DNA of 64,000 bases from Candidatus Zixiibacteriota bacterium (GTDB taxonomy: Bacteria > Zixibacteria > MSB-5A5 > GN15 > PGXB01): NCBI GenBank assembly GCA_900498245.1, contig LS998015.1, forward strand, positions 646,063 to 710,062. The letters run 5' to 3'. The notes beneath the pieces are model-generated. The model saw only the letters and a list, made by a program, of their open reading frames with translations. It had not been told where the DNA came from and did not search any database. Shown here one piece after another: positions 11,627-52,020 of this stretch. Position 1 is the first letter of the stretch; every line of letters begins with the position of its first letter. Made by a program: the position numbers and the translations under genes.

Positions 11627-11723
11627 GTTGGGGGGGAGGGGGGAAGAAAGGTGTTTGAAAAGATGGTATTATGGCATAAATTATAGTGTTGGTTGATTGA
11701 GTGTTCATAAGGCGATACGGACT

Positions 11724-13328
11724 ATGCACAGGTTTCCAGGGAAATCGATACTGAGGGTCATTTTAGTTGTGCTTCCAGTTTTGGCAAGTTCTTCGGCACG
11801 TGCTGATTGGATAACCCAGGGGCAATTTTCGGCCAAGGCGGGAATTGATTCCATTGAAAGATTTATAGTCATCCATGATATCGATACTAATAAATTGTTC
11901 GGTTATAATGTCCTCACGCCGGGGGATCTTAATGGTGATCAGATTAGCGATGTTTTTATAATGCGCTGGGCAGGAATGACAATCATCCCCAATCCTTTCT
12001 TTCTTTTCAATGGGGGTCGTCCCCCGGATAGTATCCCGGATAAGGTCTATTATGCATTTAAGCCGGGTATGCGGCAAATTGGGGATGTCAACGATGATGG
12101 CTATCCGGACTTTGGTCTTACCATCTATGAAACTCTCGATTTCGGTCTGTATTTCGGGGGTCCTTTGTTACACGATACCGCGGATTTCGTGATTCCGAAG
12201 ATGTGGTCGCGGATAACGAAGGCGGTTGATCTGAATGCCGACGGTGAATTGGAAATGCCTTTGAGCAAGAGTGTCAATGGCGGGCCCGTAAAGATTTATC
12301 ATATCGGTCCGAGCCGGGATACGATTCCGGAATATGTTATAGACGATACCTCAAGGAGTTTTGGCAATAATTTGGCGACCGGGGACTTCAATGGTGACGG
12401 TTATCCTGACCTGGCGGTGGCGGCTTATTTAAATCGCGACACTTGTTTTGTCAAATTTTACTGGGGTGGACCAAGTTTTGATACTATTCCTGATTATGAA
12501 ATAAAGAATCCTTCTCATGTTTATGGTGATATACTATTTTCCATGGATGATTTCAACGGCGATGGCTATGATGATTTGTATATCTCTGGTCAGGGGAATA
12601 GGCCGGCAGGCATTCACTTGGGCGGACCGCATATGAATAATGAACCTGATATTATTGTAAATCAGTGGCTATATGGTGGCTATATACCTCCTACGGCGGC
12701 TGATCTGGCTGGTGACATCAATCATGATGGCTATCCCGATTTAATAATGGGCTATACCAATGATGTGCAATTTGTCTATTTCATTCGAATATTCCTAGGT
12801 GGACCCGATGCTGATTCGATTCCTGATGTTTATCTGGAGAATCTTCAAATTCCCGGTGACCAGAGTTATTTTGGCGAAACCGTGGCTGGGGTTGGAGATT
12901 TTAATGGCGACGGTATAGATGATTTTGCTGTCAGCTCTCGCAATACCCTGAGAAATTGCGGCAACTGCTGGCAGGGGGAGGTCAATTTTTTTGCCGGATG
13001 GAATAGCCAGGGGACGGATGTTAAGGAGTTTGAGAATAGGGCCGTGCCTGTGGAGTATTATTTGGGGCAGAATTATCCTAACCCGTTCAATCATGAGACA
13101 ATTATTGAATTTGGTTTGGTACGACGGGCGGAGGTGCAACTGGAAATATACAATGTGCTGGGAATGAAGATAAATACCCTTGTGAATAAAGAGCTGAGGG
13201 TGGGATCATACAAGGCGGTATGGGATGGAAGAGATGAAAATGGGCGGGAGGTATCGACGGGGATTTATTTTTATCGATTGAATATCGGGGAGTTTTCGGA
13301 AGTTAAGAAGATGATTTTGTTGAAGTGA
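11724..13328 (+). CDS. Secreted FG-GAP repeat protein with C-terminal sorting domain
   Basis: Probably a surface or secreted beta-propeller protein. A signal peptide spans about residues 1-28 (hydrophobic core then SSARA). At least six FG-GAP/calcium-loop repeats of the form GDFNGDGYPDL follow, spaced about 55-70 residues apart. The last 85 residues contain YLGQNYPNPFN, a FlgD-like Ig fold (YNVLGMKI, WDGRDENGREV) and end GIYFYRL...KKMILLK, the pattern of type IX-like sorting domains. The same tail ends the protein at 61432-64000. The ATG at 11724 gives a clean signal peptide; a TTG at 11697 would add nine residues. Ligand unknown. Confidence 0.85.
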   Translation: MHRFPGKSILRVILVVLPVLASSSARADWITQGQFSAKAGIDSIERFIVIHDIDTNKLFGYNVLTPGDLNGDQISDVFIMRWAGMTIIPNPFFLFNGGRPPDSIPDKVYYAFKPGMRQIGDVNDDGYPDFGLTIYETLDFGLYFGGPLLHDTADFVIPKMWSRITKAVDLNADGELEMPLSKSVNGGPVKIYHIGPSRDTIPEYVIDDTSRSFGNNLATGDFNGDGYPDLAVAAYLNRDTCFVKFYWGGPSFDTIPDYEIKNPSHVYGDILFSMDDFNGDGYDDLYISGQGNRPAGIHLGGPHMNNEPDIIVNQWLYGGYIPPTAADLAGDINHDGYPDLIMGYTNDVQFVYFIRIFLGGPDADSIPDVYLENLQIPGDQSYFGETVAGVGDFNGDGIDDFAVSSRNTLRNCGNCWQGEVNFFAGWNSQGTDVKEFENRAVPVEYYLGQNYPNPFNHETIIEFGLVRRAEVQLEIYNVLGMKINTLVNKELRVGSYKAVWDGRDENGREVSTGIYFYRLNIGEFSEVKKMILLK

Positions 13329-13355: not shown

Positions 13356-14028
13356 CGGTCGGGAAAGGATTCCCGACGGCGCGAAATAGGCGGACGGGCC
13401 GACGAAGCGTCTGCCGCGCACGGAGGCGACGGGAAACGAAGAGGGCAGGCGCAAGACCTGCCCCTACGAGGGAGGGATGTCGGGTTTCTCATCCGGCGGG
13501 GCCGGATTCGGAACCCGACCTACCAATAATGGAGATTCCGTCGGGAAAAGGCTCCCGACGGCGCGAAATAGGCCGCGGGGTCACACCACGGACGGGAGCC
13601 CTCGGCAAGACCCCGCGCAACATTTGAAACCGGCCTACCGAATAAGGAGAAAATGTCAAGACCCCCCAGCCGCACCGCACCGGTCCCCCAAGGGGTCATT
13701 GACCTACAAGAGGCATGGAGCACCCCCAAACCCCGAAGAGCCACACATCCCGTCCCGAGTTTGGGGGTGGCACCCGGGGAAGGAAGTCAGATAAAGATGT
13801 CGAAACCCCGTCGTTCGGCAGGAGCCGAACTCGGGGGATTTCGACCTACAGAATAAATTGGATTGCGGGTCAAGAGAGATGTCGGGTTTCTCATCCGGCG
13901 GGGCCGGATTCGGAACCCGAACTACGAATGAGGGAGTTTCCGTCGGGAAGGGATTCTCGAGGGCGCAAAAAGGCCGCGGGGTCACACCTCGGACAGGAGC
14001 CCTCGGCAAGACCCCGAGGAACATTTGA
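13356..14028. repeat. Mosaic block of palindromic repeats (block 1)
   Basis: The 756 bp between the FG-GAP gene and the cupin gene are almost filled by palindromic modules. In order: family C (GTCGGGAA 13358-13365 / TTCCCGAC 13370-13377, then GGCGC); family D (GGGCAGG 13443-13449 / CCTGCCC 13457-13463, then CTAC); family B (13476-13523); family C (about 13537-13567); family E (CGCGGGGTC...GACCCCGCG, about 13574-13618); family F ending in CTAC (about 13654-13706); family A (arms 13721-13731 / 13759-13769); family B (13796-13849); family B (about 13887-13933); a decayed C and a second E (to about 14020). No real gene is seen. Confidence 0.82.
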
Positions 14029-14084
14029 AATGGATGGACGGGCAGACAGGATATCTGTCGCCCACGAAACGGCGCAGAGTTGTA

Positions 14085-14456
14085 CTAGGCGACGGCGGCT
14101 ATTTTCTTGCCGAGGTGGTCGTACACTTTTTTCAATTCCTCTTTAGGGCTGAATTCGATGAAGGAAGTGTCTTCGTCGACCCAAACGGTGTGGCCGTCGG
14201 GCCAGTAAAAAACTTCGCCCGCCCGGCAGACCTCTTCTTTGCCGTCTTCGTAGCGGACATGAATGGCGCCTTCGAGCATGTATCCCCAGTGGGGGCACTG
14301 GCAATGGTCACGGGTAAGGCCCTGCAGAAGCGGGGTGGCGTTGGTGCCGGCCTTCAATGTGACGTAAGCGACGGCCAATTTGTCCCACTCGACGGCGCGA
14401 AAAGCCGCGACCGGCATTTCCAGAGCGACGGGAATCTCTTCTTTACGTAATTTCAT
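14085..14456 (-). CDS. Small cupin-domain protein
   Basis: A single-domain cupin of 123 residues. The first cupin motif is represented by CPHWGYMLEGAIHVRYEDG with a His, and the second by AGEVFYWPDGHTVWVDED. It may bind a metal and a small ligand; no specific function can be assigned. The start at 14456 (MKLRKEE) is preferred because GGGGAG lies at the right distance upstream; a longer frame from 14474 would bury that ribosome site inside the coding region. It is a monocistronic minus-strand gene between repeat block 1 and a divergent peptidase homologue. Confidence 0.75.
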   Translation of the reverse strand: MKLRKEEIPVALEMPVAAFRAVEWDKLAVAYVTLKAGTNATPLLQGLTRDHCQCPHWGYMLEGAIHVRYEDGKEEVCRAGEVFYWPDGHTVWVDEDTSFIEFSPKEELKKVYDHLGKKIAAVA

Positions 14457-14659
14457 AAAATTAAATCTCCCCAAATCAGGTTAATACGGCAGTTTTTAGT
14501 GAAGACCCCTGATTCCTTTCAGATGGAATTATAAAATCGAGAAATCAATTATCTGAAAAGAAATCGAATCATTACCTGATTTTGATACGGCCGGGAGTAA
14601 GTATCGTTTGAAGTCAGCAGGAATTATCGTCGCATTCAATAGGGGGGGCTTTCGACCGA

Positions 14660-15877: not shown

Positions 15878-16630
15878 ATGCGGTGTACTCACAGAGGGTC
15901 AACTCTGACATTCTGGATTTTTCTACTCCTGATTGTCTTCGCAATGTCGGGAGTGCAGGCGCAGGACAGTAGTAAGGTGGCTAAGAATTATGCGAATGGG
16001 CTTCACAAGGGGGCCTGGGCGCTTCAATTTGCGATTATCAATGATTTTCAATTGAGAGATTTTCAAGGGGGAACAATAAGTATTAAAAGGCAGTGTTCGG
16101 AATCGCGGGCGATACGGTTGGGGTTGACTCTGAATGAATCATCGTCGCAATCTCACTCAGGGACGGCAAATTTCGAAGAGTCATATAAACTGGGAGAGAA
16201 TTTTATTGATCAAAACTATGATGGGCAGGCCGTCTCTCTGTATCTGCAATATATTCTGTATCCATCGACCGGGAGCAATATTCATCCCTATTGGGGTCTG
16301 GGTCCGCATCTGGGGTATTCCCGGGACAAGAGGGTGGCGCATAGCCGTACAATCGCGAGTTACGATCCGATTGAACGGGAGACGATAAGCGACAATGTGG
16401 TGCAAACTTGGACAGCGGGGCTATCGACGGTGATGGGAGTGGAGTGGTTTGCGGGGAAAAATGTCAGTCTGTTGGCCGAATATGGAATATTGGCGGATTA
16501 TAACTGGAATCACCGCACGATGAGTGAAATTTATTATCCGGGAGCCCAACAGAGAATCACGGAAGGCAAGGGTCATTCATTTTCGTTCAGCGGGACGGCG
16601 GTGAAGTTCGGGCTTTCGGCGTATTTTTAA
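15878..16630 (+). CDS. Outer-membrane beta-barrel-type protein of unknown function
   Basis: A 250-residue exported protein. A signal peptide spans about 1-28 (ending GVQAQ). The rest alternates short hydrophobic/aromatic strands with polar turns, for example VSLYLQYILYP and YWGLGPHLGYS, and ends in SAYF with a terminal Phe, as in outer-membrane barrels. No family could be named. AAAGGAG lies 9 nt before the ATG. About 154 bp without genes separate it from the M28 gene, and repeat block 2 follows at once, so it appears monocistronic. Confidence 0.62.
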   Translation: MRCTHRGSTLTFWIFLLLIVFAMSGVQAQDSSKVAKNYANGLHKGAWALQFAIINDFQLRDFQGGTISIKRQCSESRAIRLGLTLNESSSQSHSGTANFEESYKLGENFIDQNYDGQAVSLYLQYILYPSTGSNIHPYWGLGPHLGYSRDKRVAHSRTIASYDPIERETISDNVVQTWTAGLSTVMGVEWFAGKNVSLLAEYGILADYNWNHRTMSEIYYPGAQQRITEGKGHSFSFSGTAVKFGLSAYF

Positions 16631-16639
16631 GAAGAAGGT

Positions 16640-17228
16640 GTCGAAGTCGCGTTGTTCGGCGGGGCCGGATTCGAGACCGGACCTACGGGGGTATGAGCGA
16701 TAGGTTGGGGAAAAGTGGGCAGGCGCAAGACCTGCCCCTACAAGAAAAAGATGTCGGGTTTCTTATCCGGCGGGGCTGGATTCGAGACCCGACCTACGAA
16801 TGAGGGAGTTTCCGTCAGGAGAGACTCCTGACGGCGCGGAATAAGCGGCCGGGCCGGGCAGCGCAAACAACGGGCATATAAGATTTATGTTGCACACGAT
16901 GCACCCCCAAACCCCGAAGAGCCACGCATCCCGTCCCGAGTTTGGGGGTGGCACCCGGGGAAGATAAAGATGTCGAAACCCCGTCGTTCGGCAGGAGCCG
17001 AACTCGGGGGCTTTCGACCTACAAGATCTCGGAACCCGACCTACGAGTGTCAGTCCATTATGGGGAATTCCGTCGGGAAAGGGTTCCCGGCGGGGCCGGA
17101 TTCAGGACCGGACCTACGGGGGTATGAGCGATAGGTTGGGGAAAAGTGGGCAGGCGCAAGACCTGCCCCTACAAGAAAAAGATGTCGGGTTTCTCATCCG
17201 GCGGGGCCGGATTCGAGACCCGACCTAC
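16640..17228. repeat. Mosaic block of palindromic repeats (block 2) with a 141-bp duplication
   Basis: This 590-bp stretch is built from the same modules as block 1. A 141-bp segment at 16657-16797 is repeated almost exactly at 17088-17228; each copy contains a family D hairpin (GGGCAGG/CCTGCCC then CTAC) and a family B hairpin ending CTAC. Between them lie family C (about 16815-16840), family A (arms 16902-16912 / 16940-16950), family B (16969-17022) and a half B element near 17024-17045. The A+B pair matches that of block 1 closely. Short open frames here are by-products of the repeats. Confidence 0.85.
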
Positions 17229-51472: not shown

Positions 51473-51481
51473 AAGCAGAAA

Positions 51482-52020
51482 GATGTCGGGTTTCTCGCCA
51501 GTTCGCTACGCTCACGTCTCGAGCCCCAACCTACGACTACTATTGAACCAATAGGGACACGGCACGCCGTGCCACGACAAGAATGAATCACCCCCAAACC
51601 CCAAAAGCCCCTGTCCCCGTCCCGAAGTTTGGGGGTGGCACCCCCTTGGCATGGGACAAAGGAGAAGACCGTCAGGAGAGACTCCTGACGGCGCGATAAA
51701 AGCTGCATCTATAAGAATGAATCACCCCCAAGCCCCAAAAGCCCCTGTCCCCGTCCCGAAGTTTGGGGGTGGCACCCAGGGAATGGGACAAAGGAGAAGA
51801 CCGTCAGGAGAGACTCCTGACGGCGCGATAAAAGCTGCATCTATAAGAATGAATCACCCCCAAGCCCCAGAGAGCCCCTGCACCCGGCCCGAAGTTTGGG
51901 GGTGGCACCCAGGGCATGGGACAAAGGAGAAGACCGTCAGGAGAGATTCCTGACGGCGCATTGAAAGATGTCGAAACCCCGTCGTTCGGCCGGAGCCGAA
52001 CTCTGGGATTTCGATCTACG
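51482..52020. repeat. Mosaic block of palindromic repeats (block 3) with a tandem triplication
   Basis: A diverged family B element (51482-51535, ending CCTAC) and a short palindrome around GGCACGCCGTGCC are followed by three tandem composite units starting at 51581, 51715 and 51847 (periods 134 and 132). Each unit has a family A hairpin (CACCCCCAA...TTTGGGGGTG) and a family C hairpin (CCGTCAGGAG...CTCCTGACGG then CGCG in units 1 and 2). A family B hairpin (about 51967-52019) closes the block. The remaining 52021-52276 is gene-free; apart from A/T-rich stretches I see nothing in it. Confidence 0.85.

Follow-up and report, generated by a model that had tools for sequence, protein, structure and literature searches.

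We analyzed a window of 64,000 nucleotides, positions 646063-710062 of a single 3,508,505-base Zixibacteria contig, and found an intergenic block (window positions 13356-14065) that holds 13 palindromic module copies of eight families (A, B, C, D, E, F, R, and G). For 13/13 of these modules the minus strand bears the foot, the short motif directly 5' of the hairpin. The block is probably a mixed array of repetitive extragenic palindromic (REP) elements built by serial insertion by several REP-associated tyrosine transposases (RAYTs), with the polarity of the array fixing the orientation of each element. The REP identity is well supported and the one-way polarity was measured, while serial insertion is the mechanism that we infer for them.

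A block of eight palindrome families in one orientation

The block lies between a gene for an FG-GAP/secretion-tail protein (11697-13328, plus strand) and a cupin-like gene (14085-14474, minus strand; the match is below the Pfam cut-off), and its modules follow each other in the order C, F, R, D, C, E, G, A, B, D, C, E, F. Eight of the 13 copies match strict family patterns: R (13444-13467, foot GTAG, GTAGGGGCAGG..CCTGCC), D (13479-13523, foot GTAG, GTAGGTCGGGT..ACCCGAC), the second C (13538-13564), E (13577-13614, GCGC followed by GGGGTC..GACCCC), G (13654-13707, foot GTAG, GTAGGTCAA..CTTGACA), A (13723-13773, foot GTGC followed by CACCCCCAAA..TTTGGGGGTG), B (13799-13849, foot GTAG, GTAGGTCGAAA..TTTCGAC), and the second E (13978-14015). 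The other five were read by eye with the help of repeat alignments, namely the first C (13357-13382, repeat family D2), an F with foot GTGC(GC) and one imperfect arm (13393-13421), a second D with decay beside its foot (13881-13925, GTAGTTCGGG, repeat family D1), a decayed third C (13940-13963, repeat family D2), and a degenerate F (14038-14065). Between 13341 and 14060 we counted six maximal exact hairpins (stem ≥ 8); 500 dinucleotide shuffles gave 0.83 on average and never more than 5, in a test that counts exact stems and excludes imperfect ones. This bears out a preliminary description of the DNA, which saw the block as packed with separate recurring palindromic units and suspected more than one type of element; its figure of six families was an undercount.

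Some runs of modules occur twice. The run D-C-E is repeated inside the block at a spacing of ~402 nt, and the A-B pair at 13720-13849 recurs nearly unchanged at 16901-17022, as the same description had noted, with 120 of 130 aligned columns identical and one 8-nt gap. Because the loop variants of this A and this B are common to no other listed copy, the recurrence is, on its sequence, better read as a local duplication, and it gives no evidence for independent assembly of the modules. The paired base change reported for family C was also found: the stem pairs as CAGG/CCTG at 28 of 30 places in the genome and as CGGG/CCCG at one, the first C of the block, and the place at genome position 3020542 has CGGG/CCTG, a half-changed intermediate.

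One-way polarity of mixed arrays in a sample of the genome

The orientation of neighboring modules was counted in a hairpin-scan sample of 718,893 bases (20.5% of the genome), which comprises sampled stretches and array neighborhoods and is array-enriched, so its densities are not genome averages. We took pairs of modules of different families with a gap of ≤ 80 nt, both > 900 nt from the start of any RAYT match, and dropped two matches of the joint B and D pattern (3199166 and 3290162) that are not palindromes. Of these heterotypic pairs, 53/60 are head-to-tail, four have their feet outside, and three have them inside. The orientation of C, taken from its GCGC end, and of E, taken from its own core, is the least certain, and the polarity holds without both families (36/43 pairs). 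As neighboring pairs at one site are not independent, we also counted by type and by site: with each family-pair type counted once, 32 are head-to-tail and five are not, all five involving F, and 22/25 array sites are wholly head-to-tail. Neighbors of the same family behave alike (5/6 head-to-tail), as do 4/4 heterotypic pairs at eight scanned loci of the sister species, G001, the one other genome of the same genus in the comparison.

Alternatively, composite units might have been copied whole, through duplication or gene conversion, instead of arrays growing module by module. The nearly identical A-B pairs at sites 3 kb apart, the D-C-E repeat within the block, and tandem units at window 51.5 kb and at genome positions 1.116, 1.331, and 2.971 Mb all speak for such copying. 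However, most of the 32 ordered head-to-tail family pairs were seen once, and a few duplicated units cannot yield such variety with one polarity, which makes this explanation somewhat unlikely.

Transcription or selection could also impose a direction, if the hairpins served as one-directional RNA elements such as terminators or 3'-end stabilizers; roles in termination and in the stability of mRNA have been suggested for REPs (PMC3733652). Where the neighboring genes run in tandem, 48 modules are oriented against the genes and 29 with them, after the 900-nt RAYT exclusion had removed 21 modules from this count. This bias is weak, however, and the counts are not independent; divergent and convergent gaps follow no clear rule, and an Rfam search of the window returned a tRNA as its sole match and no other RNA family. 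We therefore rejected gene direction as the cause of the polarity and consider this origin unlikely. Less probable again is an origin in replication, in which RAYTs would use the lagging-strand template and so give one direction per replichore. Lagging-strand use has been described for IS200/IS605 elements (PMC6006769), but both orientations adjoin within each replichore and the polarity belongs to the array rather than to the replichore, so replichore was rejected as well.

It is highly improbable that the block is a classical bacterial interspersed mosaic element (BIME), made of one REP type and regular inter-REP sequences. Intergenic clusters of palindromes with tandem units do recall BIMEs, but BIMEs alternate the orientation of their REPs (PMC2817692), whereas up to eight families stand here in one block and both heterotypic and homotypic neighbors run head-to-tail, and we rejected the BIME assignment on this ground. 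Of the BIME-style array of interchangeable units in the preliminary description, the composite array thus remains, and the strict BIME and the use of the A-B pair as a sign of assembly do not. The hybrid BIMEs described in Stenotrophomonas (Nunvar 2010, PMC2817692) resemble the present arrays in bringing REPs of different RAYTs into one cluster and in their complementary stem changes; they join the REPs of two RAYTs in inverted-REP modules, unlike the up to eight families, mostly in one orientation, found here. The arrays are best read as REPs of several RAYTs, arranged unlike described BIMEs. An array of integron attC sites was considered as well.

RAYT genes and their flanking palindromes

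The genome encodes 11 Y1 transposases (PF01797 matches). All ten that were tested passed the cut-off of NCBIfam NF047646 (REP-associated tyrosine transposase), L009 being the one left out of this test, and the lowest scores were 81.2 for L007 and 83 for L004 against a cut-off of 80. The HUH and Tyr motifs are present in the RAYTs, with L004 lacking the Y.H.NP pattern, and L002 matches the E. coli TnpAREP structure 4er8 with an E value of 2.7e-22. At least one Y1 transposase occurs in 53 of 60 related genomes (this one included), and just one other genome reaches 11.

Inverted pairs of module A flank L007, with arms identical to those of the block copy; likewise, B flanks L002, D flanks L010, and F flanks both L003 and L006, while L011 is flanked by an inverted family with a GTAA foot. 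Because they flank RAYT genes as inverted pairs, the identification of families A, B, D, and F as REP elements is well supported. Family C shares a CGTCAG arm with palindromes at L008, with different ends, and a G-like family flanks the RAYT L160 in genome G021. Across 60 RAYT loci (11 from this genome and 49 from relatives), an inverted pair was found at 26 and none at 34, some of which showed same-strand copies only. At one surveyed locus, L123 (G030), a RAYT near a contig end has beside it a GTGC-footed REP, with eight copies in one orientation and a single copy in the other.

Genome-wide pattern searches gave 48 matches for B and D together, 20 for A, 50 perfect matches for F, 30 places for C, five for E, and six for R, with zero or one match per strand for reversed-pattern controls. 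The families thus have the form of a short palindrome in many intergenic copies, E and R at just five and six copies. Between the E copies at genome positions 1112384 and 2583327, the core is inverted relative to the shared flanks, like a flipped hairpin interior.

Feet, junctions, and enzyme motifs

In the hairpin scan, which was agnostic to the foot, GTAG stands directly 5' of 77 hairpins (2.4 expected) and is followed by about ten stem types, and GTGC stands directly 5' of 31 (4.7 expected). A GT[A/G]G foot is present at the 5' hairpin base in D, B, G, R, H, and I and absent in A and F, whose foot is GTGC, and in C and E, which have GCGC. By foot, A, C, E, and F are non-canonical REPs, yet A and F sit at RAYTs as REPs do. 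The absence of GTAG in A, C, and E had raised the suspicion that they are dependent passengers; since A and F own a GTGC foot and A has its own RAYT, L007, with inverted A copies, lack of GTAG does not imply passenger status, and the suspicion falls for A, with C and E having no clear cognate RAYT. Several intergenic families per genome and a GTAG tag are also features of the GTAG- and CGTC-tagged REPs of Di Nocera 2013 (PMC3733652), and we considered C as a CGTC-tagged REP. In contrast to the CGTC tag described there, the CGTC of family C is paired with GACG inside the stem, and its tail is mostly AAT instead of CCA, so this assignment was rejected. The words 'gtgc', 'gtac', and 'gtaa' were not found as word starts in the available text of that paper.

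The GTAG families share the right end ATCTT, with CT at +2 in 17/27 D, 10/17 B, and 7/16 G copies, and TT immediately before GTAG in 11/27 D and 12/17 B copies. Family F has GC at +5 in 23/49 copies and GC upstream in 14/49. Closely spaced module pairs read ATCTTATT-GTGCGC or ATCTTTTTCTT-GTAG, as expected if a second element had entered beside the right end of the first. A simple guide rule, by which the cleavage dinucleotide would be the reverse complement of the last two bases of the foot, fits the GTAG families (CT), F, and 2/3 copies of the GTAA family, and was rejected as a general rule.

We compared feet with enzyme motifs in 31 RAYTs of the order, comprising the foot-bearing loci and all RAYTs of this genome; eight feet (L001, L004, L005, L009, L125, L132, L159, and L169) were judged by eye from a single flank, a copy on the same strand, or a locus-flank listing, and the feet of L138 and L142, which are F-like, were likewise extended by eye. 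In E. coli TnpAREP, residues W94, Q95, E100, H101, and R104 contact the guide (Quentin 2018, PMC6006769), and we took the residue correspondence from the 4er8 alignment. A firm GTAG foot was assigned to 11/31 RAYTs, ten of which have WDH..R at the positions matching E. coli 99-104, the exception being L004 with YDR..R. WDH is found in 0/19 RAYTs with another foot, and L132, whose foot is uncertain, likewise lacks it. At this site all seven F and F-like RAYTs carry RFDD, the two A RAYTs carry GGGYDRN or GSGYDRN, and both groups lack the Arg, so that the A and F enzymes differ at the positions through which E. coli TnpAREP contacts its guide, with no matching His or Arg. As judged from these aligned motifs, foot type and RAYT type change together. 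The independent changes are few, because in a tree of the 11 RAYTs of this genome B groups with D and the five F enzymes group with L008. Within a clade of RAYTs with CCCAC stems (L011, L128, L134, L137, L144, and L163), the motif RC[YF]DHN.R is constant and the feet vary in their last two bases (GTAA, GTAC, GTCG, GTGC, and GTGG).

With known RAYT/REP systems (REPtrons), exemplified by E. coli TnpAREP (4er8), the present system shares the Y1 HUH transposase, the inverted REPs at its gene, and, in B, D, G, R, H, and I, the GTAG foot; it differs in the GTGC foot of A and F, in their RAYTs without the guide-contacting His and Arg, and in having 11 Y1 genes per genome. In the TnpAY1 subclasses 2.6 and 3 (Quentin 2018, PMC6006769), too, RAYT-like genes have flanking structures that lack GT[AG]G, but class 3 is described with the foot CnGA, and the RAYTs here could not be assigned to those subclasses. 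We found no paper naming Zixibacteria together with 'repetitive extragenic'.

Comparison with the sister species and other relatives

Comparison of syntenic gaps, which had been suggested in the preliminary description, revealed different modules in the sister. The gap between a 250-aa gene (15878-16630) and corA, bracketed on both sides in the sister, is 706 nt long here and holds the second array of the window (16640-17228, minus strand) with R, D, C, A, B, R, D, and partial modules. The sister gap is ~242 nt long and has one G module and one other palindrome, and no module is common to both species by pattern. Upstream of the M28 peptidase gene (80% protein identity), the sister carries G, a RAYT remnant between two inverted B modules, F, and E; its relative of the cupin-like gene lies on another contig. 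The remnant itself (L113, 421-749) is an internally deleted RAYT between inverted B modules, resembling a derivative of the miniature inverted-repeat transposable element (MITE) kind, and matches only residues 1-23 and 132-155 of L002.

The sister has no copy of family A, against 20 here, and a close relative of L007 was also absent there (threshold E up to 1e-15). Genome G009 has a broken L007 relative, 61% identical, with three A copies flanking it on the same contig. The co-occurrence is imperfect, as three A copies occur in G024, where no L007 relative passed E 1e-15. In total, ten A copies occur in 5/59 relatives, all with a short loop, as in the RAYT-flanking A copies; 17 of the 20 copies here have a long loop, and among the 60 genomes searched this long-loop A was amplified in this genome only.

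Proposed origin of the mixed arrays

The serial-insertion reading can be put as follows. Each REP would be a short single-strand hairpin with a 5' foot, spread within the genome by RAYTs, which are Y1 HUH transposases of the IS200/IS605 kind. As Y1 enzymes act on one strand, the orientation of a new REP in an array would be set by the strand that bears the target, and new elements would likely land at the right end of a REP already in the array, which reads ATCTT in the GTAG families; the TnpAREP enzymes of E. coli and Stenotrophomonas are reported to cleave at CT (PMC8266576). Repeated use of such sites by several RAYTs could stack different families in one direction, and local tandem or segmental duplication might then copy runs of modules, with the A-B pair and the array at 51.5 kb as examples. 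Families C, E, G, and R, which have no visible cognate RAYT, may have been moved in trans or may be relics of a lost RAYT. With the sister only ~77% identical here, no clean empty site was found, so that insertion is deduced from differing content; this weighs against the reading, and several other points do so too. The gap on the 5' side of the M28 peptidase gene is anchored on one side, as the sister contig starts inside the array. For R, E, and G this genome showed no cognate RAYT, and L008 is at best a possible match for C. All seven heterotypic pairs that are not head-to-tail involve F, with no reason identified; the gene-direction bias, although weak, is present; and the guide rule fails for L123, L124, L125, L128, C, and most other feet.

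A broader proposal, which we put forward tentatively and hold to be possible rather than probable, is that a REP already in place serves as a polar landing pad for REPs belonging to other RAYTs, that different selfish hairpin families, every one with an enzyme and a foot code of its own, thereby build one-way mixed arrays, and that RAYT lineages re-coded the foot together with the guide-contact loop. The foot codes would then include GTAG, GTGC, GTAA, GTAC, and others within one bacterial order, which we consider equally tentative. How REPs spread is described as poorly understood (PMC8266576). Its 11 Y1 enzymes, its several foot types, and its mixed arrays of one polarity make this genome suited to a direct test of the pairing of enzyme and foot, and also of whether the end of one REP is the target of another; if foot and enzyme loop changed as a pair, this would reveal how the specificity of RAYTs evolves.

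Other arrays in the window

Two further arrays were found in the window, both on the minus strand. An A-A-B array occupies positions 1-180, with the RAYT L005 ~1.3 kb upstream of the window start. The third array (51480-51990), detected with strict patterns, consists of tandem A-C units, with C every ~132 nt, and partial D and B modules. Its regular C spacing, seen over 51591-51959, perhaps arose from unequal recombination.
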